Source: an uncultured bacterium
GTDB taxonomy: Bacteria > Verrucomicrobiota > Kiritimatiellia > PWTM01
DNA length: 48,228 nt
Direction: 5' to 3'
Assembly (NCBI GenBank): GCA_938010045.1
Contig: CALLFZ010000044.1
Coordinates: 1 to 48,228, forward strand
The position numbers and the translations under genes are program-made. The notes under the pieces were generated by a model that saw nothing but the letters and a program-made list of their open reading frames with translations, made no database searches and was not told the DNA's origin. Numbering within the stretch: the stretch's first letter is position 1; every line of letters begins with the position of its first letter. Of this stretch, positions 24,253 to 39,465 are shown one piece after another.

Positions 24253-25352
24253 GCGGACTCCTTGCCTCGGGAAGAGCGGCGGCGGCGCGGCGGCGGCGCG
24301 GCGTGCGGCTGACGTGCGCGCGGGTGCCGGTGCGGCGGCGCGGAGGCTACCGCGGGCGGTGCGGCCCGTGCGGCGGGTATCGCGACGGCCGAGTCCCGCT
24401 GGGGAGGATCGCCCAGGTCGTTCCGCGTATGGCCGGCGGCGGCGAGCACCCGATCCGCGGTTTGGAAATGGCATTTCGCGACCCACCAGAGCGCGCGCGG
24501 GCCATGCCGACGGACCAGTTCCACCGCGGCCGCCTCGACCGCGGGCGACGCGCCCTTCGCCAGCGGCACCTCGAAGCGGCGGCTGAGCTCGGCGAGCGAC
24601 TCGAGAAACCGCGCGCGCGCCAACACCGAGGCCGCGGCGACGGCCGGATCGGACTCCGCGCGCGGCCGCTGCTCGAGCCGGATCATGCGGCCGCGCCGCA
24701 TCAGAGCGCCCTTCACGCGGACGGCGGGGCCGAATTGGTCCGAAAGCGCGCGTGGGCAGTCGGGCACGCGTTCGAGCAGGTTCTCGATCGCGCGCGCGTG
24801 ACCCCAGGCGAGTACCGCATTCACGTTGCCGAGCTTCGCGTACAGCCGGTTGTAGGCCTCGGGACCGATCGCGACCTCGACGTGGCGGTCACCGAGTACG
24901 CGTCGGATCTCGCGCGCCATGCGCAGCGCGACCGCGTCGCTCGTGATGCGCTTCGAATCGCGGACGTTGAGCCGGTCGAGCGCGGGCACGATCATCTCGT
25001 CCACATAGGCGGCCGCCACGACGAGCGGGCCGAAGAAGTCGCCTTTGCCGCTTTCATCAACGCCGATGTGGGGCGAGGCGCGACTGGGATCCAGCTTGTC
25101 CTCGTAGCCGATCGCGGCGCGGCGCAGCACGACGGGTTCGAGCACATACGCGACCCAATCGGCCGCGCCGGCGCCCTGCACGACGCACTTGCCCGAGGCG
25201 TAGAGCGCGATGTGGCACTCGGGCCGCGCCGCCGCGACGACCGCGTACGGCACCTCGAGCCGGCGGTAGTTGCCCTGCTCAAGCTCGCGGCGGAGGCGCT
25301 GCTGCTCGGCGGCGTCGAGCTGAACCGTGAACGAGGTGCGCGGTGCCGTCAT
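24249..25352 (-). CDS. rnhC: Ribonuclease HIII
   Basis: 367 residues. It cleaves RNA in RNA-DNA hybrids. An N-terminal TBP-like substrate-binding domain (about 1-80) precedes the catalytic domain opening HIGVDESGKGDFFGPLVVAA, with Asp99 and Glu100, then NVRDSK (Asp132) and ESDPAVAAASVLARARFL. The GKGDFFGP version and the N-terminal domain separate HIII from HII. The C-terminal 50 residues are basic and His/Pro/Arg-rich, beyond the usual end of about 310, and may add nucleic-acid binding. ATG 25352 overlaps the preceding stop; the longer upstream frame is inside that gene. Confidence 0.93.
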   Translation of the reverse strand: MTAPRTSFTVQLDAAEQQRLRRELEQGNYRRLEVPYAVVAAARPECHIALYASGKCVVQGAGAADWVAYVLEPVVLRRAAIGYEDKLDPSRASPHIGVDESGKGDFFGPLVVAAAYVDEMIVPALDRLNVRDSKRITSDAVALRMAREIRRVLGDRHVEVAIGPEAYNRLYAKLGNVNAVLAWGHARAIENLLERVPDCPRALSDQFGPAVRVKGALMRRGRMIRLEQRPRAESDPAVAAASVLARARFLESLAELSRRFEVPLAKGASPAVEAAAVELVRRHGPRALWWVAKCHFQTADRVLAAAGHTRNDLGDPPQRDSAVAIPAARAAPPAVASAPPHRHPRARQPHAAPPPRRRRSSRGKESA

Positions 25353-26854
25353 GGTCGTGGGCACGATACGGAACCCGGGCCGTCCGTGCAACGGTCGGCT
25401 GCGCCGAGCGTCGCCACTGGCCGCTCCGCGACGAGGAGCAGCGAGAGGCCCGGCAGCGGGATACGCCGCTCGATGCGGCTCATCAGCGGCACAAGCAGGT
25501 CGAAGAGCTTGATCTGCCAACGGCTCATCGAGCGGCGCCGCAGTGCGACGCTGTTCCACCACCAGCCGAGCATTGCGGCGAAATTGAACGAGCGCGCGCG
25601 GACCACGCGCAGACCAGCGGCCTCGACGAGGCGGTGCAGGTCCTCGCGCCGGTAGCGGCGATGGTGGCCGAGCTCGCGGTCGTACCGCCCATAGAGTGCC
25701 GGGTGTTGCGGCACGAGCAGCACCAGCCGGCCGCCCGGTTCCAACAGGGAAGCCATGTGGCGCACCGCGCGGGCGTCGTCGGCGACGTGCTCGAGCACGT
25801 TCGCGCACACGACCGTATCGAACGGTTGCGCGGCGAGTGCAGCGGCGTCGGTATCGGACTCAAGGTCGAACTTTGCAACCGAGACGATGGGGTGGCCGGC
25901 CCAGGCGTCCGCGAGCAGGCGCAGGTAGGTGGGGTCGTGGTCGCTGAGCACCAGCCGCTCGCGCTTCGGTAGCCAGCGGCTCAGGTTGCCGATCCCAGCG
26001 CCGACCTCGAGGATCCGCACGCCGAGGTCGGGGAGCATGAGCCGCGCCATCCACTCGTGGAAGCGGCGCGCGAGCGCCATTTCGGCGAGGATTTCGTGGC
26101 CGTAGCGGTCCTCATAGCAGTCGTCCACGATCCAGAACCGCAGGATCGTGAAGATCGCGGCAACGCCATCGCGCCAGCCGATCTTTTTGCCCTCGGCGTA
26201 GCCACGGCCGTGGTAATTGATCGGCACCTCGTAGACGACGCAGCGGCGCTTCGCGATCTTCGCGGTGATCTCGGGCTCGATGCCGAAGCGACGCGATCGG
26301 ATCGGAATCGTGCGCAGCACGTCGGCGCGGAACGCCTTGTAGCCGGTCTCCATGTCGGTGAGGTTCAGGCCGGTGCAGAGGTTCGAGAGCGCAGTGAGCA
26401 ACCGGTTGCCGAGCTCGTGATGGTAGTTGAGCACGCGGCGCATCGCGCGTGGCACAAAGCGGGAGCCGTAGACCACGTCGGCATGGCCGTCGACGAGCGG
26501 GCGCAGCAGCACGGGGTAGTCGGCCGGATCGTATTCGAGATCCGCGTCCTGCCAGATCGCAAACTGGCCGCGCATTTCGCGAATCGCGCGCGCGATCGCG
26601 GCGCCTTTGCCGCGGTTCTCAGGCTGGCGGACCACGCGCACGACCGGCGCGTGGCGGCGCTCGAGGTCGCGCGCGATCTCGGCAGTGCCGTCGGTCGAGG
26701 CGTCGTCCACGATGATCAGCTCGCGACTGAGCCCCTCGGGCAGGGGCGCGGCGAGCACGCGCTCGACGCACGGGCGCAGCCAGATGCGTTCGTTGTAGAC
26801 CGGGATCAGGATTGAGACGAGCCGGTGAGTCGCGGATTCGCTCGCGCCGCTCAT
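25349..26854 (-). CDS. Bifunctional GT2 glycosyltransferase / SAM methyltransferase
   Basis: 501 residues. Residues about 10-240 are a GT2 domain of the dolichyl-phosphate-mannose-synthase type: VSILIPVYNERIWL, IIVDDASTDGTAEIA, NRGKGAAIARAI, and the metal-binding IWQDADLEYDP. Residues about 270-470 are a class I methyltransferase: ILEVGAGIGNLSRWL (SAM loop), LVLSDHDPTYL, VVCANVLEHVADD and LLEPGGRLVLLVPQHPALYG. Two-domain proteins of this layout are known. It may transfer a sugar to a polyprenyl carrier or glycan and methylate a related product. Both ends overlap neighbours by ATGA; the FKP gene upstream suggests a fucose-linked role, an inference. Confidence 0.9.
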   Translation of the reverse strand: MSGASESATHRLVSILIPVYNERIWLRPCVERVLAAPLPEGLSRELIIVDDASTDGTAEIARDLERRHAPVVRVVRQPENRGKGAAIARAIREMRGQFAIWQDADLEYDPADYPVLLRPLVDGHADVVYGSRFVPRAMRRVLNYHHELGNRLLTALSNLCTGLNLTDMETGYKAFRADVLRTIPIRSRRFGIEPEITAKIAKRRCVVYEVPINYHGRGYAEGKKIGWRDGVAAIFTILRFWIVDDCYEDRYGHEILAEMALARRFHEWMARLMLPDLGVRILEVGAGIGNLSRWLPKRERLVLSDHDPTYLRLLADAWAGHPIVSVAKFDLESDTDAAALAAQPFDTVVCANVLEHVADDARAVRHMASLLEPGGRLVLLVPQHPALYGRYDRELGHHRRYRREDLHRLVEAAGLRVVRARSFNFAAMLGWWWNSVALRRRSMSRWQIKLFDLLVPLMSRIERRIPLPGLSLLLVAERPVATLGAADRCTDGPGSVSCPRP

Positions 26855-29820
26855 CCCTCGTCGAGGCTCCAGGTGTAGATGCGCAGCGCGGGGTCGAACG
26901 CCTCCAGGCGACGACGCACGAGTTCGGCGGCGTCGGGGTCTTTCGCGAGCAGGCCAAGAAAACCGCCGCCGCCGGCGCCGGCGAGCTTGCCGCCAACGCA
27001 CAGGTCCTCGACTTCGCGGAAGAGCGCGTCGATGTGAGGATTGCTGCACTCGGGCGTGAGCTGTTGCAGCGCGCCCCAGGCGGCCGCGAGCGCCGCGCCG
27101 AGATCGTCGAGCCGGCCCATCGCGAGCGCCGCGCGCGCTTCGGCGGCGATTTCGACCAGCGCGCGGATCGCGTCGAGCGTGCGGGCTTCACGCCGCAAGT
27201 AGCGCTGCACGACGAGCTGCAGGATGTTGCGCGCGAGCCGCTGCTGTCCCGTGAACACGAGCACGAAGCGGCGCTCGAACTCGTCGCGAACGCCTGGGCG
27301 CAGCGGCACCGGCTCAATGTCCATGCGCAACGGCCGGCGCGGTAGCGTGCGGATGCATTTGACGCCGCCGACGAGCCCGCCGATCTGGTCCTGCCAGCCG
27401 CCGCCGGTGCGCATGCGCTGTTCGAGCACGAGCACGAGGTCGCTGACCGTGCGCGTGTCGGCCGGGCGGCCGGCGAGTTCCTGCAGCGCGCGCATTACGG
27501 CCGCGCCGAGGATGCTGCTGGTGCCCAGGCCACTGCCTTTGGGCACCGCCGCACGTGTGCGCAGCCGCACGCCCTGCGTGATGCCGTTCGGCCCCGCGTA
27601 GCCCGCGACGCGCAAAGCGGTTTTCAGTAGGTGGAAGGGGTCGGCGACACCGCTGCTGTGAAGGGCCTCGACGGGCGACTCGATGATGCGCCGCGCGCCG
27701 AGGTCTTCCACCTCGAGCTCCCAACGGAGCGCCGGCAGGATTTGGGCCTCAACGACCACCGGGCGTTCGCCGTCAAGCCGCAGCGCGAAGTTGAGCACCA
27801 TGGCGGGGCGCTCGAGGCAGTAGGGCGGCGTGTCGCTCCAGCCGCCGGAGATGTCGAAGCGCACCGGCAGCCGGATGGCGACGCGGCGCGGCGGGCAGTC
27901 GCGGACCGGCTCGGGCTCAACGTAGCGGACGGCCTCGGCGACCTCGGCCTGAACGGCCGCGAACGCTTCATCCCCCGCGCGAGCGGCCTCCTCGGTGCTT
28001 CCGCTGGCCAGCGCGAGATCCGCGCGCATCTGCAGGCGGCGGCTGCGCGGCGTGAGCGGCGCGGCGGGGGCGTCGTCGGCGAGCATCTGATCGGCCATGG
28101 AGAGCGCCCGCGCGCGCAAGCCGGCCGTCGGAAGACGCCGCGCGAGCTCGTGCACGTTGCGGTCGAGCGCGCTCTCGACCGCGCGGCCGAGGGTTTGGAG
28201 CAGCAGCGCGGACTCGGTGGCGGCGAGGCGGCGAGACCAGGCACGGAAGTCGGCGCGGCGGTGAAGTTCCGCCAGCGACACGCGTTCGGAGGCCAGCCAC
28301 TCGCGCCGCACGCGCTCGGCCGCGCGGCCGCGACCGGGTCCGGCCAGCCACATCGCGAAACGGAGGCTCGCGGGCATTTCCTCGACGGGGAAGAGTCGCG
28401 CGTGCCAGATCTGCTTCGGCCCGCCGTCGGGCCACAGCACCTCGGGCGTCACGGCGTGCTCTTCGAGCCACAACCGCAGCTCGCGATTGCAGAAGGTCGC
28501 CTGATCGGCCGCCGCGCCGGGGTGATCGTCGGTGCCGCACACCGCGCCGACCACGCGCTCCGCGCCGCCGTCCGCGACGAGCGGCACTTGCCAAACGCAC
28601 GTATGGTCCGGCAGCGTCCACGCCTCGCCGCCGTCGTCTACGCCGACCGCGACGCAGCGCCGGCCGATCGCAGCGTGCGGGCCGAGCCGGCAGCCGTAGA
28701 TCAGGCTGCCCCAGCCGACCTGCGCGTCCGCATGGATGGCGCTGACGTAGAGGCGCGCGTCGGGCGAGATGCGCGGGCCGTCGTCGGCGAGCGCGCGAGT
28801 CAGCAGCGCGCCGGCCCAGGCCCCGGCGAAGTGGTCGAGGATCTCCGCAGTGGTGCCAAAGTGCAAGAACACGAGGTCGTCTGCACGGCGGTGCTGCAGT
28901 CTGAGCGCGCCGAGCCGCTCGACGAGCCGCCGCCCCCAGTCGGTGCGCGCGATGGCTGGTTGCGAGCTTTCGACCATCGCGCCTCCGAGTTCCTCGTAAA
29001 GGCTGCATGTGTCGCCGCGCTCCAGCAACCGGTCGTAGGCCCCGGGCCGTTCGACCGCAGCCGCGACCAGCTCGGCGAACGCGGCCCCGGTGAACGCCCA
29101 CACGCCCGTGTCGAGCAGCGCGGCGCCGCCCTCGATGAGCGCGCCGGCCGCCTCGAGCTCGGCGGGTGAGGCCTTTTGCAGCAAACGGAACACCTGACCC
29201 TCCGGCCCGCCGACGATCACGCCGTGTCGCGATGCGAGATCCAGCGGCACCGGCGCCGTGACCACCACCGCCGCGTCGCGCGGCAGCCGGAGCCGCGCCG
29301 GGTCGAACAGCAGTAACATGTCGCCGGAGAGCGTCACCATGCCGCCGCCCTGAAGCGCGTCGACGAAGCCCGCCGCGACCGCGACGAGATGATCGAACAC
29401 CGTCGGCAGCGCGTGGTCGGGATCGGCGAGGAGCGGCAGCGGAATAAACGCCTTGCCGAAGGTGTTCGCCCAGGGCACGCGCCGGCTATCGCCGCCCGAG
29501 TGGATCAGCAGCACGCGCCGCGAGGCGAGCGCCGGGTCGCCGGCCGCCATCGCCCGCAGCGCGTGGAGCGTCGCGCCGCCGCTGCCGATGCGACAGCCGT
29601 TGGGGTCGGGCACGACGGCCGTGCGCGTCGCGGCCGCAAGCGCGCCGCGGTGGCGGGCCGCCTCGAGCGCGATCGAATACCATTCAGCTTGCGCCTCACT
29701 CGCCGCGGTGAGGATGACCCAGTCCCACGACGGAAATCGCTCGGGCGCCGCGATCGCGAGCCGATGGCGGGCCCACCCGCCGGCCAGATCTCGAAGTTGG
29801 GGTTCGCCGATGTGCCGCAC
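26851..29820 (-). CDS. fkp: Bifunctional fucokinase / GDP-fucose pyrophosphorylase (FKP)
   Basis: 989 residues, close to Bacteroides FKP (about 950). The N-terminal part is the fucose-1-phosphate guanylyltransferase, with the nucleotide loop PDPNGCRIGSGGATLHALR and HSGGDSRRVPWANTFGK. A beta-helix-like middle (DARLYVSAIHADAQVGWGS, IYGCRLGPHAAIG) follows. The C-terminal GHMP kinase has RFDISGGWSDTPPY, ATP loop PKGSGLGTSSILGAAV and AGAGGGGFLGLL. Together they turn free L-fucose into GDP-fucose. AGGAGG lies 7 bases before the GTG start at 29820. This implies fucose salvage and fucosylated surface glycans; fucosyltransferase candidates are the window's GTs, unproven. Confidence 0.94.
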   Translation of the reverse strand: MRHIGEPQLRDLAGGWARHRLAIAAPERFPSWDWVILTAASEAQAEWYSIALEAARHRGALAAATRTAVVPDPNGCRIGSGGATLHALRAMAAGDPALASRRVLLIHSGGDSRRVPWANTFGKAFIPLPLLADPDHALPTVFDHLVAVAAGFVDALQGGGMVTLSGDMLLLFDPARLRLPRDAAVVVTAPVPLDLASRHGVIVGGPEGQVFRLLQKASPAELEAAGALIEGGAALLDTGVWAFTGAAFAELVAAAVERPGAYDRLLERGDTCSLYEELGGAMVESSQPAIARTDWGRRLVERLGALRLQHRRADDLVFLHFGTTAEILDHFAGAWAGALLTRALADDGPRISPDARLYVSAIHADAQVGWGSLIYGCRLGPHAAIGRRCVAVGVDDGGEAWTLPDHTCVWQVPLVADGGAERVVGAVCGTDDHPGAAADQATFCNRELRLWLEEHAVTPEVLWPDGGPKQIWHARLFPVEEMPASLRFAMWLAGPGRGRAAERVRREWLASERVSLAELHRRADFRAWSRRLAATESALLLQTLGRAVESALDRNVHELARRLPTAGLRARALSMADQMLADDAPAAPLTPRSRRLQMRADLALASGSTEEAARAGDEAFAAVQAEVAEAVRYVEPEPVRDCPPRRVAIRLPVRFDISGGWSDTPPYCLERPAMVLNFALRLDGERPVVVEAQILPALRWELEVEDLGARRIIESPVEALHSSGVADPFHLLKTALRVAGYAGPNGITQGVRLRTRAAVPKGSGLGTSSILGAAVMRALQELAGRPADTRTVSDLVLVLEQRMRTGGGWQDQIGGLVGGVKCIRTLPRRPLRMDIEPVPLRPGVRDEFERRFVLVFTGQQRLARNILQLVVQRYLRREARTLDAIRALVEIAAEARAALAMGRLDDLGAALAAAWGALQQLTPECSNPHIDALFREVEDLCVGGKLAGAGGGGFLGLLAKDPDAAELVRRRLEAFDPALRIYTWSLDEG

Positions 29821-29853
29821 GCTCTCGCCTCCTGCGCGTGGCTCCGCGCCACC

Positions 29854-31137
29854 TCAGAGCCGGCCATCGGAGGCGCCGCGCGGAAGCACGTACTTCACGT
29901 CGAACAGCACGTGTGGCCGACGGCCGAGCGCACGGATCCGCTCAGCACCCATCTCGCGGAACTGCTTGTGTGCGACCGCCAGGATGATTGCGTCGTAGGT
30001 TCGCGGCCGCGGCCGCGAGACGAGGCATAGACCATATTCGCGCTCCGCCTCGGCGGGGTCGGCCCAGGGATCGTGCACCTCCACGCGCGCGCCGAGGCCG
30101 CGGAGCTCTCGCACGATGTCCACCACACGCGTGTTACGGATGTCGGGACAGTTCTCCTTGAACGTGAGCCCCATGACGAGCACGCGCGAGCCGGGCACGA
30201 TGATCCGCCGCGCGGTCATGAGCTTGATCACGCGCGTGACGACGTACGACCCCATGTTGTCGTTGGTGCGGCGGCCGGCGAGGATCATCTCCGGATGGAA
30301 TCCCACCTGCTGCGCCTTGTGCGTGAGGTAGTACGGATCCACGCCAATGCAGTGCCCGCCGACGAGCCCGGGCCGGAACGGAAGGAAGTTCCACTTGGTG
30401 CCCGCCGCTGTGAGAACCTCCTCGGTGTCGATGCCGAGCCGCTCGAACAACATCGCGAGCTCGTTCACGAGCGCGATGTTCACGTCGCGCTGCGTGTTCT
30501 CGATCACCTTCGCGGCCTCGGCCACCCGGATCGAGCTGGCCAGGAACGTGCCGGCCAGCACGATCGTCGAATACACCGCCTGCACGCGCCGGGCGGCCGC
30601 GGGCGTCGAACCCGACACGATCTTGCGGATGTTGACGAGCCGGTGCTCCTTGTCGCCCGGGTTGATGCGCTCCGGGCTGTAGCCGAGAAAGAAGTCACGG
30701 TTCAGCTTCAGCCCGGATCGGCGCTCGAGGATCGGCGCGCAGACTTCCTCCGTCGCGCCCGGATAAACCGTGGACTCATACACGACGATGTCGCCGCGCT
30801 TTAGCACACCGCCCACCGTCTCGCTGGCGCGTTGGAGCGGCTGGAGGTCCGGCCGCTTGAACTCGTCCACCGGCGTCGGAACAGTCACGATATAAAAATT
30901 GCAACGGCGGAGGTCCGCCACTTTCGTCGTGAACCGCAGGTGTTTCGCGGCGCGCAGCTCCGCCGGCGAGGTCTCGAGAGTGGAATCGCGGCCCGAGCGC
31001 AGTTCGCGGATCCGGGCCGGATTGATGTCGAATCCGACTACCGGACCGCGGCGGCCGAACTCGACCGCCAGTGGCAATCCAACGTAGCCCAGACCGATCA
31101 CCGCGATGCGGACATCATCCACTTTGGGCTCGGGCAT
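29854..31137 (-). CDS. Nucleotide-sugar dehydrogenase (UDP-N-acetylhexosamine type, TviB/WbpO-like)
   Basis: 427 residues. It oxidises C6 of a UDP-sugar to the uronate in two NAD-dependent steps. [18 protein letters not shown] is the NAD loop, [26 protein letters not shown] carries the catalytic Cys, and [16 protein letters not shown]-like text ([16 protein letters not shown]) marks the C-terminal domain. [13 protein letters not shown] and [14 protein letters not shown] favour the UDP-GlcNAc/GalNAc dehydrogenase branch over UDP-glucose dehydrogenase. The ATG at 31137 has GGGAGAG upstream; GTG 31152 is in frame. It heads the minus-strand run, with 33 bases before FKP. Confidence 0.9.
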
Positions 31138-31298
31138 CGAATGCTCTCCCACGGCATAGCGCTATCGTTCATGATGCCGCAACACCGGGCCAGTGGAAAG
31201 CGGCTCCGCGGCCGCTTGCTTCGGCCGGGCGCGGCGTGGACGATAGCGCGCGTCGGCATGGGCCGATGGGGTCGGCCGCCGCGCGTGATGAATCCTGG

Positions 31299-32576
31299 AT
31301 GACAGCCTCGTGGTGGTCACCGGCGGTCTTTTTGACCGCCTATGTGCTGTTGGTGCTGCTTCCGCGGCGGCGGGCGCTCGTCGCCCTGCTTGCGGCGGGC
31401 GTTCTCGTGTTGGTCGGTGCGACGCCGTGGCGGACTGCTCTCGTCGCGCATGTGTCATGGAACGTCGTCTGCCTGTTTTTCGGCACGCTGATTCTCTCCG
31501 AACTCTTCATGCAGTCGCGCATGCCCGCGGTGATCGCGGAGGCGGTGATCCGACGCATGCACACCGGCACCGGAGCGATGCTCGCGATCTGCGGCATTTC
31601 CTCGGCACTGTCGATCATGCTCGAAAACGTGGCCGTGGTACTGCTCGTGGCACCGGTGGCGGTGAGCCTGTGCCGTCGGCTCGGCGTATCGCCCGTGCGA
31701 TTGCTCGTGCTGATTGCGCTCTGCTCCAATCTGCAGGGCACCGCGACGCTGATCGGCGACCCGCCGAGCATGATCCTGGCCGGGCACATGCACCTGTCGT
31801 TCAACCAGTTCTTCGTCTACCGCGGCCGCCCCTCGGTATTCTGGATCGTGCAGGCCGGCGCGATCGGCGCCATGGGGGTGGCGGCGTGGCTCTTGCGCCA
31901 CCACCGCGAACCGGTTGTTCCGATCGACGTCGAGCCTCCGCGCGCCTGGACACCCACCGCGCTGCTGGCCGTGTTTGTGCTCGGGCTCACCACCACCCAC
32001 GTGTTCGATCCGGACTTCCGCTGGCTGGCCGGCGCCTGGGCCATGGCGCTGGCGGCCGCGGGGCTGGCGTGGTATCGGGCCGTCGCACGGTGGGGTCGTG
32101 TGCGGGAGCTCGTGCAGTCGTTGGACTGGGATACGACCTTGTTTCTCATTGGCGTCTTCGTGCTCGTCGGGTCGCTGGCGTCGTCGGGCTGGCTCGACCG
32201 GCTTGCGGAGACGCTGGCTGGCTGGTCGGGCCGAAGCGTGACCGGCGCGTTTCTACTCATGCTCGGGATCAGCGTTGCGGTCTCGGGGTTCGTGGACAAC
32301 GTGCCGTACCTGGCCGCGATGCTGCCGGTGGTGGACACCATGGCGGGGCAGGTTGGCGCGCGCGAGCCAGCGCTGCTCTATTTTGCGCTGCTGGTCGGTT
32401 CGTGCCTCGGCGGTAATCTCACGCCGATCGGTGCCTCGGCCAACGTCGTCGCGATGGGCCTGCTGCGCCGCGAGGGGCACCTGGTGCGGTTCGGGGAGTT
32501 CCTGCGCATCGGCGCGCCCTTCACCGCGGCGGCGGTCGGCGCAGGCGCGGCGGTGCTCTGGTGGATCTGGCGGTGA
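31299..32576 (+). CDS. Ion/anion permease, ArsB/NhaD (SLC13/CitT-like) superfamily
   Basis: 425 residues with about ten to twelve hydrophobic segments. Two internal half-repeats carry superfamily motifs: NLQGTATLIGDPPSMILAG in the first half and GSCLGGNLTPIGASANVVAMG in the second, with SGFVDNVPYLAAMLP preceding. Members move Na+/H+, arsenite or dicarboxylates; the substrate is not resolvable. ATG 31299 overlaps a short upstream frame and no strong ribosome site is seen; the preceding in-frame extension is unlike a membrane protein. It ends in a GTGA overlap with the SGNH hydrolase gene. Confidence 0.86.
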   Translation: MTASWWSPAVFLTAYVLLVLLPRRRALVALLAAGVLVLVGATPWRTALVAHVSWNVVCLFFGTLILSELFMQSRMPAVIAEAVIRRMHTGTGAMLAICGISSALSIMLENVAVVLLVAPVAVSLCRRLGVSPVRLLVLIALCSNLQGTATLIGDPPSMILAGHMHLSFNQFFVYRGRPSVFWIVQAGAIGAMGVAAWLLRHHREPVVPIDVEPPRAWTPTALLAVFVLGLTTTHVFDPDFRWLAGAWAMALAAAGLAWYRAVARWGRVRELVQSLDWDTTLFLIGVFVLVGSLASSGWLDRLAETLAGWSGRSVTGAFLLMLGISVAVSGFVDNVPYLAAMLPVVDTMAGQVGAREPALLYFALLVGSCLGGNLTPIGASANVVAMGLLRREGHLVRFGEFLRIGAPFTAAAVGAGAAVLWWIWR

Positions 32577-33175
32577 GCGCGCGGCCGCGCTGGGTGGTGT
32601 ATGGCTCGAGCCTGTCGGCCGAGCGCGTGCGGTGGGCGCCGTGGCGCGCCTGCGGCGGGTCCTGGGTGGCCGCGCTCCGCGGCGCGAGACCAGATCTCGA
32701 GATCGTCAACCGCTCGGGCTGGGGCTGGACCTCGCGCGACGCGGTGCGCGCGTTCGGTCCCCGCGTGCTCGCGCTGCGACCGGCCGGCGTGATCCTCGAA
32801 TTCACGATCAACGACGCCGACGACCGTCGCCACTGCTCGGTCGAGGACTCGGCCGCGAATCTCGAGACGATGCTGCGCGCCTACGCGGCCGCCTACCCCG
32901 CTGGCCGGGCGGTCGTGCTGCTTCCTCCCGCGCCGCTCGGCCGCCACGCGCTGGCGCGCCCGCGCCTCGAGACCTATGCCGACGCCTGGCGCCGCGCCCT
33001 GGCCGCGCACCATGCGGTGGTCGTCGACCTTGACGCGGCGTGGACCGCGCAGTTTGGCGCCGACCCCGCCGGCGAATCGGTGCGCCGCCCCGACGGGCTT
33101 CACTTCTCCCGCGCCGTGGCGGACTGGATCGCGGCCGTCGTTGGTGCCGTGCTCAGATCCGCGAACCGGTCGTGA
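32573..33175 (+). CDS. SGNH/GDSL-type esterase
   Basis: 200 residues, three blocks of the SGNH fold visible: VVYGSSLSAERV near the N-terminus (Ser nucleophile block), EFTINDADD (the Asn of block III) and RRPDGLHFSRAVADW (Asp-x-x-His, block V). Block II is less clear (NRSGWGWTSRDA). No signal peptide is seen. Such enzymes remove acyl groups from sugars, lipids or glycans. The GTG at 32573 overlaps the permease stop (GTGA); a GTG at 32561 is 12 bases earlier. The two large exported proteins downstream suggest a shared polysaccharide substrate, an inference. Confidence 0.78.
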   Translation: MSARPRWVVYGSSLSAERVRWAPWRACGGSWVAALRGARPDLEIVNRSGWGWTSRDAVRAFGPRVLALRPAGVILEFTINDADDRRHCSVEDSAANLETMLRAYAAAYPAGRAVVLLPPAPLGRHALARPRLETYADAWRRALAAHHAVVVDLDAAWTAQFGADPAGESVRRPDGLHFSRAVADWIAAVVGAVLRSANRS

Positions 33176-33309
33176 TCGAGAGCCGGCCGCTGCGGCTGGC
33201 CCCATCGGCGAGGTGGCGATTGAGCGGTTGAACGCCGGAGGGCCCCTTCCTAGTATGGATCCGACGAGTCCAGCGCCCCGCCGGACTTCGTCACCCAGGA
33301 GGGGCGGGC

Positions 33310-36024
33310 ATGAAACGAGGCCGCCGATGGATCGTCTTGCTCGCGGCGACGGTGCTGGTCCTGTGGATGGCGACCGGGGCCGAGGGCGTCGTCGTCGAGG
33401 TGCATCGCGAGGTGGTCCGCGCGGCCAGTGAGCTTCAGCCCATCGGGGTGAACAATTTCGGCGACGCGGGTGGCACGAAACACGCGGCGGGCAATCTGCT
33501 CTACGACAGCGGATTCGAGCCCATTCGCCTTCGCGTGCTCTATCGGGTAGCGGACAGCGGCGAGGAGGGCGGTCGCAAATGGATCCGGCTCGACGGCCCC
33601 GGCACAAGCCATTGGCTGCTCTTCACCGACGGAACTTTCAGTGGCTCGCCCATCCGCGGATATCGCTTCGTGGATGCCGAGGGGCGCACGCCCTATCGCG
33701 AACAGCGGGGCGGCGCGCGGATGCTCGACGAGTCCGCCGCAGTGCGCTGCGTAGCGCTTCCGCCCGCGCGCGTGCTGCCCTCCGGCTCACCGGGCCTGCC
33801 GCGCGGCGGCTGGTGCGCACCCGCGCCGAACCGCTACGAAGAGTGGCAGAACCTGCCGGAGTCGGAGAAGGAGGCGTTCCGGCAACAATGGCGCGTCGGG
33901 TACGACGGCGAGGCCACCTACCAGCTCGATGATGTCGTCATCTTCGAGCGGGAATGGTTCTGGCCGGACCCGGCCGACGTTCATCCCCGCACAAGCGCCG
34001 ACGGAATCCACCTGACATGGGAGCTCAAGGGGCCCGGCGCCGTGCGCATCGTGCCGCATCTGCCCGACGCCCCCGCCGAGATGGGCGGCGGACGCGGCTG
34101 CCTGGAACTCACGCCGGAGAACGGACGCGCCGTGGTATGGAACAAGCTCGCCGGTGGTGTCGGCCGCCAAGACCGCGAGTGGTACGGCACGCTCGACGAG
34201 GGCATCACCTACCGTTATGAGGCCTGGGTGAAGGGCGACGGCGGCACGCTCACACTGACCTTCGGCGAGGCGAACCCCGCTCGGGCCACGGAGGGATATT
34301 TTGGGCAGTCCATCTCGCGTTCGTTCGTCATCGAGCCCCGCTGGACACGCGTGGGCTTCGACTTCGTCGCCCCGCCGCCTGGCCGGGACGGTATCTGGGG
34401 TGCCACGCTGCTGATCGAGGGCGGCGCAACGGTGCGCGTGGACAATGTGAAGCTTCAGCCCGTGTACGGACCGGATGATGGGGATCGGCCATTCGTCATC
34501 CACCGGCCGCTCTTCCAAACGCTGCTCGACGCGCAACCCGCCGCCGGCCGCAAGGGCGCCGCGCGCGTCTGGTTCGGTCTCAACAGCGCCTCGATGGCCT
34601 CGTTGCTCGACTGGTACAGTGAGTCGAAGCTTAATCTCGGAACGGCGCTGCGCGTGAGCGCCGCGACGACCTACACGCTGCCGCGCGCGCTCATGATCCT
34701 CGAGGCCACCGGCGACTCGCCCGAAACGCGCATGGTGCCCTGGCTCATGGGGCAGGTCACGCACACGGAGGACGAGTATCGGCAGCTCATCGAATACCTC
34801 GCCGCGCCCTATGACCCGGCCCGAGACACCCCGCACAACAAGCCGATGGCCTGGAAGCGGTTCACGCAGCGCGGGCACGGCCGGCCGTGGGCGGATGACT
34901 TCCGCGAAATCATCCTCGAGTTCGGCAACGAAAACTGGCACAACCGTGCGATGCCCTCCTGGATCGGCATGGGCCGGTATGGCGCGGTCCACCAACACGG
35001 CCGCGCAATGGGACTCTGGATCGCCCACATGGTCGCCGAGCTGCGCCAAAGCCCGTGGTGGCGGCCGGACAAATTTCGCGTAGTGGCCGGCGGCAACTAC
35101 AGTGCCGGCGTTCGTCCCGATGGCACGGTCTCGGGCTACGGCCAGGAGTCGGTGGTTGCGGCCGGCGGCGCGGCGAACGACCACAGCCATGCGACCTATG
35201 TGGGCCCGCGTTGGGAAATGGGCGAGGCCAGCCAGTCGGTTGTGGACGATGCAGGCTTTCAACGGACGTTGCTGGCGCACCGCGGTGGTAACCTGCCGGA
35301 GTGGGAGCGGCAACGGGAGGCGCACGAACGGCTGCTCGAACTCGGATTCAACGTGCGCATGACCGCGTACGAGGGCGGGCCGAGCGGGTTCGGGCTGCGC
35401 GCCCGAACGCCGGAAGAGGATCTCGCCGGCGAGATCTACGGCAAGTCCCTCGCGATGGGCACCGCGGTCTTCGACGCTTGGCTTAACGCGTGGCAGCTGG
35501 GCTGGACCCACCAATGTTATTTGAGTTTCGGTCAGGGGAAATGGTGGAACAGCCACACGTCGCGCTCCAACGGCCACCGGCCCAGCCCCGCTTGGCTGGC
35601 GATGACGCTCATCAACCGCCACCTCGCGAACCTCGATATGCTTCGCGTGACCGTCGAGGGTGCGCCCACGCTCACCGTGGATGCGCCGCGCCGCCGTGCC
35701 CGCGCCGGCGCGGAGACCCGCCGTGAGGTGCCGGTGGTCACGGCGCACGCGTTTGGGAACGAACGGCGTCTGGCAATTGCGCTGGCCAACCTCCATCTCT
35801 CCGAGCCGCAGACGGTCGAGCTTCGCCTGCCCTTCGCCGCCGCCCGCCGGATCGAGTGGCACCACCTCGACGGCGATCCGCGTCAGACCAACCTCGATGC
35901 CATGAACGTCACGTTGCGAAGCGAAGTGCTGAACGCGTCTCGGCTGCGCAACGGCCGGCTCGAGCTTTCGCTTCCGCGCGGGGTCGCCGGGGTGGTCGTG
36001 GTCGAGCCGGAGACCGGCGCCTGA
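33310..36024 (+). CDS. Large exported glycoside-hydrolase-like protein (clan GH-A type)
   Basis: 904 residues. A signal peptide (KRGRRWIVLLAATVLVLWMATG) is followed by a beta-rich region, a carbohydrate-binding-like module (about 250-395, with ITYRYEAWVKGDGGTLTLTFG), then a likely TIM barrel. IILEFGNENW (Asn540-Glu541) fits the acid/base 'NE' motif and MTAYEGGPSG (Glu688) fits a nucleophile strand, 147 residues apart, as in GH-A enzymes such as GH51. A C-terminal beta domain closes the protein. AGGAGGGG lies about 8 bases before the ATG. I cannot match it to a named family; arabinofuranosidase- or xylanase-like activity is one guess. Confidence 0.72.
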   Translation: MKRGRRWIVLLAATVLVLWMATGAEGVVVEVHREVVRAASELQPIGVNNFGDAGGTKHAAGNLLYDSGFEPIRLRVLYRVADSGEEGGRKWIRLDGPGTSHWLLFTDGTFSGSPIRGYRFVDAEGRTPYREQRGGARMLDESAAVRCVALPPARVLPSGSPGLPRGGWCAPAPNRYEEWQNLPESEKEAFRQQWRVGYDGEATYQLDDVVIFEREWFWPDPADVHPRTSADGIHLTWELKGPGAVRIVPHLPDAPAEMGGGRGCLELTPENGRAVVWNKLAGGVGRQDREWYGTLDEGITYRYEAWVKGDGGTLTLTFGEANPARATEGYFGQSISRSFVIEPRWTRVGFDFVAPPPGRDGIWGATLLIEGGATVRVDNVKLQPVYGPDDGDRPFVIHRPLFQTLLDAQPAAGRKGAARVWFGLNSASMASLLDWYSESKLNLGTALRVSAATTYTLPRALMILEATGDSPETRMVPWLMGQVTHTEDEYRQLIEYLAAPYDPARDTPHNKPMAWKRFTQRGHGRPWADDFREIILEFGNENWHNRAMPSWIGMGRYGAVHQHGRAMGLWIAHMVAELRQSPWWRPDKFRVVAGGNYSAGVRPDGTVSGYGQESVVAAGGAANDHSHATYVGPRWEMGEASQSVVDDAGFQRTLLAHRGGNLPEWERQREAHERLLELGFNVRMTAYEGGPSGFGLRARTPEEDLAGEIYGKSLAMGTAVFDAWLNAWQLGWTHQCYLSFGQGKWWNSHTSRSNGHRPSPAWLAMTLINRHLANLDMLRVTVEGAPTLTVDAPRRRARAGAETRREVPVVTAHAFGNERRLAIALANLHLSEPQTVELRLPFAAARRIEWHHLDGDPRQTNLDAMNVTLRSEVLNASRLRNGRLELSLPRGVAGVVVVEPETGA

Positions 36025-36077
36025 ACGTCGCGCCGCCTCGCCTCCGCGGCCGGTTCGCGCCATCGGCTTGCGGTGTG

Positions 36078-36092
36078 GGAGCCTCAGGCTCC
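36078..36092. repeat. Short hairpin GGAGCC-TCA-GGCTCC before the DUF4091 gene
   Basis: Six-base arms with a 3-base loop, ending 7 bases before the ATG at 36100. It could be a weak RNA hairpin limiting translation, a transcription pause, or an extragenic palindrome. No clear ribosome site accompanies this start. Confidence 0.4.
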
Positions 36093-36099
36093 ACCCTTC

Positions 36100-39000
36100 A
36101 TGGTCATGCACACGCTGATCTGCGCATTGGCCGCGGCGGCGGCGCCGTGGCATGTGGACCTCTCCGCCAGTCTCGATGGTGTCTGGAACCGTCGCCTTGC
36201 GGTGGATCTGACCAATGCCTCCGCCAACAGCGCGGTCGCGGACACCGCGGTGGTAGACCTTTCCCTGTTGGCCGGTGCGCGCGTGGCCGAACTACGCGTG
36301 GTCACCGCCGACGATGCCGAATTGCTCTACGACATCGTAGACCCCACGGGCGGCTGCCGGCGCGACGGCGTGGTCGAAGCGGGCGATCGGCTCCTCGTGC
36401 CCGTGGATCTCGAAGCCGGCGGGACGCAGCGCCTCTACGTCTATGCCGACAATCCGCGCGCCGTGCCGGTGCCCGAAGTCTGGAGTTCCGGATTGCGCAA
36501 CGGCGCGTTCGAGGCTGTCCGCAGCGGCGCGCCCGAAGGCTGGCAGGCGGCCAACACTGGCACCTCGCATCGAGCCGTCTGGGGAACGGGATTCGGCCGC
36601 CACGGTTCCGCCGGTGTGCTCGTCGCCGTCGCCAGCGGCGCCCCGCCCGTCTGGGTGCAATGGCGCCAACGCGTGGACTCGATCACCGGCGGCCGCCGTT
36701 ACCTGCTCGCGGGCTGGGTGAAAGCTTCGAACCTCCGTGGCCGCGCCGGCTGGTACATCCACATCCACACCAACGGTGGGCCCCCCATCATCCGCCACGC
36801 CGACGCGGAGCGCCCGATGCCCGACTGGACGCTCCTCGCCGTCGAGTTCGACGTGCCCACCGGTAGATGGAGCGCGACCATCGGCACACTGCTCTACGGC
36901 AATGGAGACGCGGCCTACGACGACGTCGAGCTCATCGCCCTCTCCGACGGTCCAAAGATCCACGTGGCCGCCGCGCGTCTTGAGACCCGCCCTTCGTCCC
37001 CGGAGCGTCCGCCGTTCGCGCCCCGGTTCCAACCCGGCGAGGTCGTCGCGGCGCGCTTCGTGCCCGCTGTGGACGCCGGCGACTGCGGCGGCGTTCTCGC
37101 CGATCTGAGGCCTCTCGGCGGCCGATGGTACGGTGGGCGGCCGAGCGCGCCGTTTCGCGCCGCCACGCCCGACGGTGCAGCAGTGACCGCGCTCCGCATC
37201 GGCGACTTTGTGTGGCTCGAGCGCCCCGCCGGCACACCCGCCGCTTGGGACGTGGTTCTTCGAGCGGCCGATGCCGTGCCGGCACCCATCGAGGGATTCC
37301 CGACCGCCAGCAACCTCGCGCCCCCGCTCTTTGCGGACGACGGCCGCTCGCCCGGCCGCGGCTGGCGTTTCAACGGCCGCGCGGACGCATCAGGCGCCGG
37401 CGTCCGAGAGGCCGCCGGCGTCCAAACCTTGGAATTCGATTCCACACCCGCGTCCAACGATTGGACGGGCTGGGTGTCGAACCCGATTCCGATCGAGCCG
37501 GGCGCCACCTATCTCCTCGCCGGTCTGCTCTCCGCTGAGGGTGCCGCGACCAGCGCCGTGATCCATGCTCACCTGCGTACCGCCGGCGGCGAGCTCGTGC
37601 GCGGGCGGTGGGCGATCTGTACCTCGCCCGGCGCAACGAACGGCGGTTGGACGCTCAGCAGCACCGTGTTTCGTGCCCCGTCCGATGCGGCCACAATCTC
37701 GCTGCACCTCACCGTGAACCGTCCCGGCCTCCTGCGGCACCGCGCCGTATATTTGGCGCGGGCGGACCGCGCGCGGATCGTCGCGACCACGACGCCCGGC
37801 GCGCCGCCGGCGAATCTGCCGCGCGTATGGAGTGCGGATCCGCTGGTGAAGGTGTTTCGCGACGACCCGCCGCCGGCGGCCGTGGCGGGACCGATCCGGC
37901 TTCGTGCCGTACGGGGCGAGGCGGAGATTGCGCAGCTGGTTGTGTATGCTGGCGGCGCGGCGCGTGAGGTCAGCGTCGAACTGCCGCCGCTGTGCGGGCC
38001 AGGCGGCGCGGCGCTCACCGCTCGGGTCGAGGTCGTCGGGTATGTGCCCGTGGATCACCCAACCTCGTACGATCGGGACGACAGCCCGGCGGGTCATCGC
38101 CGCCGCCCGCGCCGCGAGGGCAGCAGCGACGGCTGGGCCGGCGAATGGCCCGATCCGCTCATCCCCACCAACGCCGTGCACGTGGAGGCCGGGCGCCACC
38201 AGCCCGTCTGGATCACCGTGCGTGTGCCGGCCGACGCGCGGCCCGGTCTCTATGAGAGCCTCGCGCAAGTACGGCTCGACGGCCGGCCGTTCACGGAGGT
38301 GCCCCTTGCGCTCGAGGTGCTGCCGCTCGCGCTGCCCCGGCGGCCCTCGCTGCAGATTCTGCTCGACTTGCGCACAGGGCCCGGCGGCGACTTCGGCAGC
38401 GGCATTGCCGAGATCGGCCGCCCGCGCCGGCGCGCATGGCTGCAGTTGCTCGCAGAACACCGCGTCGGCATTGACCGCATTCGTCCTGAGCCGGAATTTC
38501 GACGGTTGGACGACGGCCGCGTCGAGATGGACTCGGCCGCCTACGAAGCCGAGGCCGCGTACTGCTTCGACGATCTGGGCATGGCCGCCGCGTACGCCCC
38601 GACCTTCTTCGATCAGTTCGGCTGGGCCTATCGCCCGCGGCCGCGCTTCGGTCTAGAGCCGCTCTCGCCGGAGTGGAGGGACGCGATGCGCCGCGCGGTG
38701 CGGCTCTTCGCGGACCGAATGCGCGAGCGCGGCTGGCACGACCGCTACTTGCTGTACATCTCGGACGAGCCGCACTTCCAGCATGAGTTCGTCGTCGAGC
38801 AGATGCGCGAACTCTGCCGCATGTACCACGAATCTGGCGCGGGCCTGCCGATCTATTCGAGCACGTGGCGGCATTGCCCGGCCTGGGACGATTCGCTCGA
38901 CGTGTGGGGGGTGGGCCAGTATGGATGCTTCCCGGTCAAGACGATGGAACGGCTGCGCGCGGCGGGGCGCGGCCTTCTCTTCACGTGCGACGGCCAGATG

Positions 39001-39465
39001 GCGATCGACACGCCCTATCTGGCCACCGAGCGGCTGTTGCCCTATTACTGCTTTACGTATGGCGCTCGGGGATGGGAGTTCTGGGGCGTCTCGTGGTGGA
39101 CGTTCGACCCGTGGCGGTTTGGTTGGCACTCGTACATCCGCCAGAGCGACGACGGCGCGCGGCACTACTTTATCCGCTACCCGAACGGGGACGGCTACCT
39201 CGCCTACCCCGGCGCGCCGGTCGGCGTGGAGGGGCCGGTGCCCTCAATCCGGCTTGCCCAGGTGCGCGAGGGGGCGGAGGACTACGAGCTGCTCAAACTG
39301 CTGGAGGCGGAGGCCGGCTTCGATGCCCCCGCGCTGGCTGCCGCGCGCGCACTCGTCACCATCCCCAACGCGGGCGGCCTGCGGTCGCTCTCGATTCTGC
39401 CGGACCCCGCGGCGGTGCGACGCGTGCGCGATCAGGTTCTCGACGCGCTCGTGGCGCGTCGCTGA
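36100..39465 (+). CDS. Large exported DUF4091/GH123-like glycoside hydrolase
   Basis: 1121 residues. After a short signal (MVMHTLICALAAAAA), two similar beta-sandwich modules resembling CBM4/9-type carbohydrate-binding domains are seen: NGAFEAVRSGAPEGWQAANTG (about 140-300) and WRFNGRADASGAGVREAAGV (about 415-560). A barrel of the DUF4091/GH123 type follows (about 750-1100), with LYISDEPHFQHEF holding Asp889-Glu890, the expected catalytic pair position, then YPNGDGYLAYPG and PSIRLAQVREGAEDYELLKLLE, the family's closing signature. GH123 enzymes release N-acetylgalactosamine; DUF4091 specificity is mostly unknown. Start ATG 36100; GTG 36073 and ATG 36106 are alternatives. Confidence 0.82.
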   Translation: MVMHTLICALAAAAAPWHVDLSASLDGVWNRRLAVDLTNASANSAVADTAVVDLSLLAGARVAELRVVTADDAELLYDIVDPTGGCRRDGVVEAGDRLLVPVDLEAGGTQRLYVYADNPRAVPVPEVWSSGLRNGAFEAVRSGAPEGWQAANTGTSHRAVWGTGFGRHGSAGVLVAVASGAPPVWVQWRQRVDSITGGRRYLLAGWVKASNLRGRAGWYIHIHTNGGPPIIRHADAERPMPDWTLLAVEFDVPTGRWSATIGTLLYGNGDAAYDDVELIALSDGPKIHVAAARLETRPSSPERPPFAPRFQPGEVVAARFVPAVDAGDCGGVLADLRPLGGRWYGGRPSAPFRAATPDGAAVTALRIGDFVWLERPAGTPAAWDVVLRAADAVPAPIEGFPTASNLAPPLFADDGRSPGRGWRFNGRADASGAGVREAAGVQTLEFDSTPASNDWTGWVSNPIPIEPGATYLLAGLLSAEGAATSAVIHAHLRTAGGELVRGRWAICTSPGATNGGWTLSSTVFRAPSDAATISLHLTVNRPGLLRHRAVYLARADRARIVATTTPGAPPANLPRVWSADPLVKVFRDDPPPAAVAGPIRLRAVRGEAEIAQLVVYAGGAAREVSVELPPLCGPGGAALTARVEVVGYVPVDHPTSYDRDDSPAGHRRRPRREGSSDGWAGEWPDPLIPTNAVHVEAGRHQPVWITVRVPADARPGLYESLAQVRLDGRPFTEVPLALEVLPLALPRRPSLQILLDLRTGPGGDFGSGIAEIGRPRRRAWLQLLAEHRVGIDRIRPEPEFRRLDDGRVEMDSAAYEAEAAYCFDDLGMAAAYAPTFFDQFGWAYRPRPRFGLEPLSPEWRDAMRRAVRLFADRMRERGWHDRYLLYISDEPHFQHEFVVEQMRELCRMYHESGAGLPIYSSTWRHCPAWDDSLDVWGVGQYGCFPVKTMERLRAAGRGLLFTCDGQMAIDTPYLATERLLPYYCFTYGARGWEFWGVSWWTFDPWRFGWHSYIRQSDDGARHYFIRYPNGDGYLAYPGAPVGVEGPVPSIRLAQVREGAEDYELLKLLEAEAGFDAPALAAARALVTIPNAGGLRSLSILPDPAAVRRVRDQVLDALVARR

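Follow-up and report, generated by a model that had tools for sequence, protein, structure and literature searches.

The gene under study lies on the plus strand at positions 33310..36024 of the window (the whole 48,228-nucleotide stretch of DNA analyzed), and its translation, predicted fold and relatives mark it as a 904-aa glycoside hydrolase, putatively exported and remotely related to GH51. The frame is free of stops over 904 codons, and direct reading of the sequence placed a ribosome-binding site, AGGAGG, at 33297..33302 (+), 7 nt upstream of the ATG. Residues 1 to 25 (33310..33384, +) resemble a signal peptide, with KRGRR and then a hydrophobic helix at residues 5 to 20 that was modeled at low confidence. 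We read the N-terminal letters MKRGRRWIVLLAATVLVLWMATGAEG as such a peptide by eye, and on this reading the protein would be exported. Both the intact frame and the signal peptide had been proposed in a first-pass annotation of the locus, and both held. Opposite the gene, the minus strand carries a 788-aa open frame (33787-36153), presumably a high-GC shadow frame.

The next gene upstream encodes a GDSL-like esterase (32561..33175, +; Pfam PF13472, E = 1.8e-13), and the next gene downstream, after a gap of 48 nt as called, encodes a GH123-like hydrolase (36073..39465, +; Pfam GH123_cat, E = 2.4e-14). Also present are a citrate-type transporter (31071-32576), a UDP-glucose/GDP-mannose dehydrogenase (UGD; 29854-31152) that might serve UDP-uronate synthesis, and Fkp, the bifunctional fucokinase/GDP-fucose pyrophosphorylase (26851-29820). 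The window holds an epimerase and glycosyltransferases as well. A GT2-methyltransferase frame (25349-27049) lies near the Fkp/dehydrogenase pair, the three together spanning 25349-31152.

Searches against curated families returned little for the window protein. With the full sequence, Pfam gave solely a sub-threshold CBM_4_9 match (E = 0.19, 12.5 bits versus a cut-off of 25.9); the barrel part gave nothing at E = 1, and NCBIfam gave zero matches. Neither PF06964 nor PF22848 matched the protein (GH51 curated cut-off not reached), and PF06964 had no match in the window genome. The best phmmer match among PDB sequences had an E value of 1.1, and a search of genome contigs with the single protein sequence found no match. 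When the barrel parts of all 54 aligned family rows were searched (set A5, Pfam, E ≤ 1), Alpha-L-AF_C, the GH51 C-terminal domain, was weakly matched in 12 of them (best E = 0.0011); NCBIfam gave an arabinosylfuranosidase match in 1 of the 54 barrel rows (E = 0.013). As far as these sequence models go, the family is without a name in Pfam and NCBIfam, and a literature search, at the level of search listings, found no publication naming it.

An AlphaFold2 model built from the 54 sequences (pLDDT 90.2, pTM 0.91) folds into a (beta/alpha)8 barrel, whose eight strands lie at residues 46-48, 417-421, 476-481, 534-538, 589-593, 624-631, 683-691 and 732-737, and thus contains the TIM barrel that had been proposed. 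In the model, a first strand (residues 27-37) and barrel strand 1 (46-48) occupy residues 27-55 (33388..33474, +), with GH51 structures aligning from residue 24-27. Barrel strands 2 to 8 occupy residues 395-771 (34492..35622, +) and are followed by a C-terminal beta-sandwich at residues 776-900 (35635..36009, +), the region of the 12 weak Alpha-L-AF_C matches. In a Foldseek search of the PDB, the top 27 rows were all alpha-L-arabinofuranosidases, mostly labeled GH51 (best match, MgGH51 6zps, E = 1.2e-20); the rows after these were GH79, GH44 and more GH51 entries. VIA comparisons gave Z = 25.8 for the Thermotoga maritima GH51 enzyme 3ug4 (rmsd 2.9, 454 aa, 14% identity) and Z = 22.4 for 6zps, with 557 residues aligned across model residues 27-901. 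With eight strands and Z values of about 25 to GH-A structures, the predicted barrel has the features of clan GH-A.

Between barrel strands 1 and 2 lies a large insert. We modeled residues 56-392 separately (pLDDT 91.8) and compared them by VIA with the CBM16 3oeb (Z = 13.9, 131 aa, rmsd 2.3), the CBM4 4bj0 (Z = 13.8) and the own insert of MgGH51 6zps (residues 34-206; Z = 12.9, 150 aa), which occupies an equal position. About 130 to 150 of the insert's 337 residues form the jelly roll, and the middle is a nested module. The jelly roll, at about residues 60-94 and 236-386, and the nested module, at about 95-235, together span 33487..34467 (+), the boundaries of the nested module being approximate. 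CBM_4_9 was matched below its cut-off in 12 of the 13 rows of set A1 (Pfam, E ≤ 1). On the modeled structure, the insert is a CBM4/16/22-type jelly roll, and the binding-module-like region named in the first-pass annotation is a real one. The nested module has FN3-like sequence in many relatives. Fibronectin matches of profile A4 in the PDB stem from these FN3 modules and were set aside as uninformative on the barrel; toxin entries (insecticidal and other) among the insert's Foldseek and VIA rows were given no weight, the jelly roll being a common fold.

The presumed acid/base, Asn540-Glu541 (34927..34932, +), and the presumed nucleophile, Glu688 in the sequence YEGGP (35371..35373, +), are both conserved in 54/54 aligned rows. 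In the model, E541 comes directly after strand 4 (534-538) and E688 lies within strand 7 (683-691), as in the layout of clan GH-A, and these are the positions and the placement that the first-pass annotation had assigned to them. Arg419 (34564..34566, +) aligns with the arginine of the GH51 RxPGG motif in both structures and sequences. The residues invariant across all 54 rows are R419, N540, E541, Y630, W635 and E688, and Q735 is identical in 51 of them. Identity to relatives across the barrel and C-terminal domain is 24 to 45%, in many phyla. Given such relatives and the six invariant residues, the finding goes beyond chance.

Next, we looked at how the family relates to GH51 in sequence. 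When a barrel profile was run against PDB sequences, alpha-L-arabinofuranosidases were its sole barrel matches (E = 0.0043-0.086). An hhalign comparison with 13 GH51 proteins of the phylum, picked with a filter requiring PGG and GNE, gave a probability of 98.6 (E = 6.4e-16, 428 columns, 18% identity) and paired N540-E541 with GNE, E688 with the DEW glutamate and R419 with the RWPGG arginine. The clade containing the window protein scored 94.0 against GH51 on its own, and a clade found in exopolysaccharide clusters (see below) scored 95.9; four unrelated exopolysaccharide protein families, used as controls, scored 0.1 to 0.4. Against GH39 (8 of 12 GH39 proteins used), the family's probability was 0.2, versus 76.9 for GH51 against the same set. 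The family is thus homologous to GH51 and probably shares its chemistry. This remote homology, brought out by Foldseek, the barrel profile and hhalign, had been missed in the first-pass annotation, whose statement that no family could be named stands for Pfam and NCBIfam.

The window protein shares with the GH51 enzymes 6zps and 3ug4 the barrel, the C-terminal sandwich, the NE acid/base, the strand-7 Glu and the conserved Arg, and with 6zps also a first barrel strand that precedes a CBM-like insert. It differs from them in its low identity (13 to 15%), its lack of RxPGG, DEW and a Pfam match, the module nested within its CBM and its signal-peptide-like start. RxPGG and DEW are taken as substrate-side motifs in GH51. 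No P(x)G occurred within 8 residues past R419 in any of the 54 family rows, whereas RxPGG was found in 13 of 14 GH51 loci (frames picked by length alone; the exception is a 232-aa fragment), and the family's nucleophile motif is YE[G/A]GP rather than DEW. A quick tree contained a starred branch that splits GH51 from the family and an intermediate group; long branches lie between GH51 and the rest, and the tree speaks to grouping only. Row L091_b, also of the family, is placed apart from the branch that holds the 54 rows. Because the Arg is kept but RxPGG and DEW are absent, the family is, judged from its sequence motifs, a sister group of GH51 and not a GH51 member. The same absences, with the invariant Y630 and W635 and the YE[G/A]GP motif in their stead, suggest that its substrate would be other than alpha-L-arabinofuranosides. 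An ordinary GH51 alpha-L-arabinofuranosidase that has simply diverged would agree with GH51 being the nearest family by both fold and profile, with the retained catalytic pair and Arg419, and with an insert placed as in MgGH51. We consider it quite unlikely, however, in view of the motif differences and low identity described above, a window barrel without a Pfam match at E = 1, and the separating branch of the tree.

We also considered whether the enzyme acts on uronic-acid polymers, as the beta-glucuronidases and heparanases of GH79 do. By fold, the Acidobacterium capsulatum beta-glucuronidase 3vny (GH79) is nearly as close as GH51 (VIA, Z = 24.5, rmsd 3.3, 413 aa), the bacterial heparanase 5bwi (GH79) follows at Z = 22.0, and the dehydrogenase gene described above, with its possible part in UDP-uronate synthesis, would fit. 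GH79 belongs to the same fold group; sequence profiles run against the PDB at E = 10 found GH51 barrels and no GH79 chain, and we regard action on uronic-acid polymers as very unlikely. GH79 matches above the cut-off occurred in 1 of 240 genomes, too few for a profile.

A second orphan group of GH51-like (ASD1-like) proteins, the intermediate group of the tree, was found at loci L018 and L104 to L111 (also L010, L012, L023 and L024). Its members share with the window family GNE.W at the acid/base (9/9) and the general order of catalytic motifs, and differ from it in the nucleophile motif, YEVN or YETN (9/9). The best Pfam match within the group was to ASD1, in L105 (21.3 bits versus a cut-off of 22.2).

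Relatives of the window protein were found in 12 of 97 related genomes and, across the phylum, in 14 of 387 (the window's own genome counted in both), and in 15 of 286 genomes from the class of genome G127. When named genomes were scanned with the help of a profile, 65 of 87 pattern matches were confirmed, at 64 loci, in Verrucomicrobia, Planctomycetes, Kiritimatiellaeota, Armatimonadetes, Spirochaetes, Heliophilum (Bacillota), Myxococcota and Proteobacteria. None of 58 pattern matches on viral contigs was a true relative. The family is therefore widespread, occurring in Kiritimatiellota, Verrucomicrobiota, Planctomycetota, Armatimonadota, Spirochaetota, Proteobacteria and others. The window genome holds a single copy of the gene. 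A member in genome G049 (L017, 250-3444, +) carries about 400 extra residues, of no obvious kind, between barrel strands 6 and 7 (aa about 565-978), and a homologue in a genome ranked in the same genus (L101, 8804-11810, the same stretch as L008/L016) is split across two frames, by a frameshift or an assembly error.

Because the gene lies between a GDSL-like esterase and a GH123-like enzyme, in a genome with some 50 sulfatase matches (53, some being parts of one gene), its surroundings suggest that the window enzyme's role is in polysaccharide degradation. Among the matches listed, neighbors within the window's clade (80/81 proteins picked) included periplasmic-binding/LacI regulators, sulfatases, GDSL and sialate-type esterases and an alpha-fucosidase; those at 18 other loci that do not belong to the exopolysaccharide set (64 proteins) included GH42, GH94, GH106 and GH116-like matches. 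Each neighbor family was counted one to three times. No shared cassette was found: when 14 window proteins were compared with the loci of relatives, the sole matches were weak ones, to transporters, UGD, phosphohexomutase and glycosyltransferases.

Taken with the computed features, namely the barrel, the jelly-roll insert, the C-terminal sandwich, the Arg and two Glu residues that are conserved, and the homology to GH51, these observations lead us to consider it likely that the gene encodes an exported, probably retaining clan GH-A glycoside hydrolase, from a family that has no name and is sister to GH51. In such an enzyme, Glu541 would protonate the leaving group and Glu688 would form a covalent glycosyl-enzyme, and the jelly roll may help to hold the polymer. 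The enzyme would work outside the cytoplasm with the neighboring GDSL esterase, which would remove acyl groups, and with the GH123-like enzyme, and their joint target may be an acylated, possibly amino-sugar-containing polysaccharide. Several points weigh against this account: relatives do not share the local gene set, the signal peptide was read by eye, and a substrate does not follow from the fold and catalytic pair by themselves, GH79 being nearly as close by fold. Arabinoxylan and fucoidan, suggested as substrates in the first-pass annotation, received no specific support.

One clade of relatives occupies a different genomic setting. At locus L087, a single strand encodes Wzz, a CbiA-type ATPase, the exosortase EpsH, Wzy_C, the hydrolase, a Wzx-type flippase, an FkbM methyltransferase, GT4 and GT2. 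We scanned 55 family loci (L048-L102) with marker models seeded from L087 alone, which may miss distant relatives, and with glycosyltransferase and FkbM matches excluded as markers. Nine loci (L082, L086, L087, L088, L092, L093, L096, L097 and L100) carried one or more of the markers (Wzz, kinase, EpsH, Wzy or Wzx), and five of them (L086, L087, L088, L096 and L097) an exosortase. All nine fall in one starred (96), mainly proteobacterial clade of ten rows, the tenth of which (L089, Myxococcota) had no marker. No marker was found at the other 45 loci with these models from one locus, many of the contigs being short; the absence of a marker is weak evidence, because many loci end near the gene.

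The proteobacterial clade resembles PrmQ of Sphingomonas LM7 in that the hydrolase gene lies inside a Wzx/Wzy-type cluster; PrmQ, however, is a GH16 enzyme, and the window gene sits outside such a cluster. Deletion of PrmQ, which is encoded in an exopolysaccharide cluster, gave rugose colonies; its authors predicted that it hydrolyzes the polymer during secretion; and deletion of prmN (GH10) in the same cluster was without effect on colony form (PMC11340318).

By analogy, the window enzyme might trim the organism's own exopolysaccharide during export rather than serve in feeding. The setting of the relatives' clade (9/10 rows in exopolysaccharide clusters) is consistent with this, as are the Fkp, UGD, epimerase and glycosyltransferase genes of the window and the presence in the window genome of an exosortase, recovered by the exosortase model at E = 2.4e-35. 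That exosortase, however, is on another contig, the same models gave only glycosyltransferase-type matches within the 48-kb window and none for Wzx, Wzy, Wzz, a tyrosine kinase or an exosortase, and the window protein belongs to a different tree clade. We therefore judge trimming of the organism's own polymer unlikely and keep to degradation as the suggested role of the window enzyme.

More speculatively, the whole family may cut one linkage typical of bacterial exopolysaccharides and form a new CAZy family beside GH51. Proteobacterial producers would then trim their own polymer via the export cluster, and consumers (PVC bacteria, Armatimonadota, Spirochaetota and the window organism) would secrete the enzyme to eat such polymers. 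We offer this tentatively, as a rather unlikely proposal. Many uncultured bacteria carry this conserved, unnamed glycosidase family, which is blank in Pfam and NCBIfam and also occurs in exopolysaccharide clusters, and its active-site motifs are defined well enough for direct testing. If the proteobacterial clade does trim exopolysaccharide, its members would offer a handle on polymer sizing in export and a candidate dispersal tool. Three loci of the intermediate group (L109, L110 and L111) also adjoin Wzy, Wzz or GT2-type genes.
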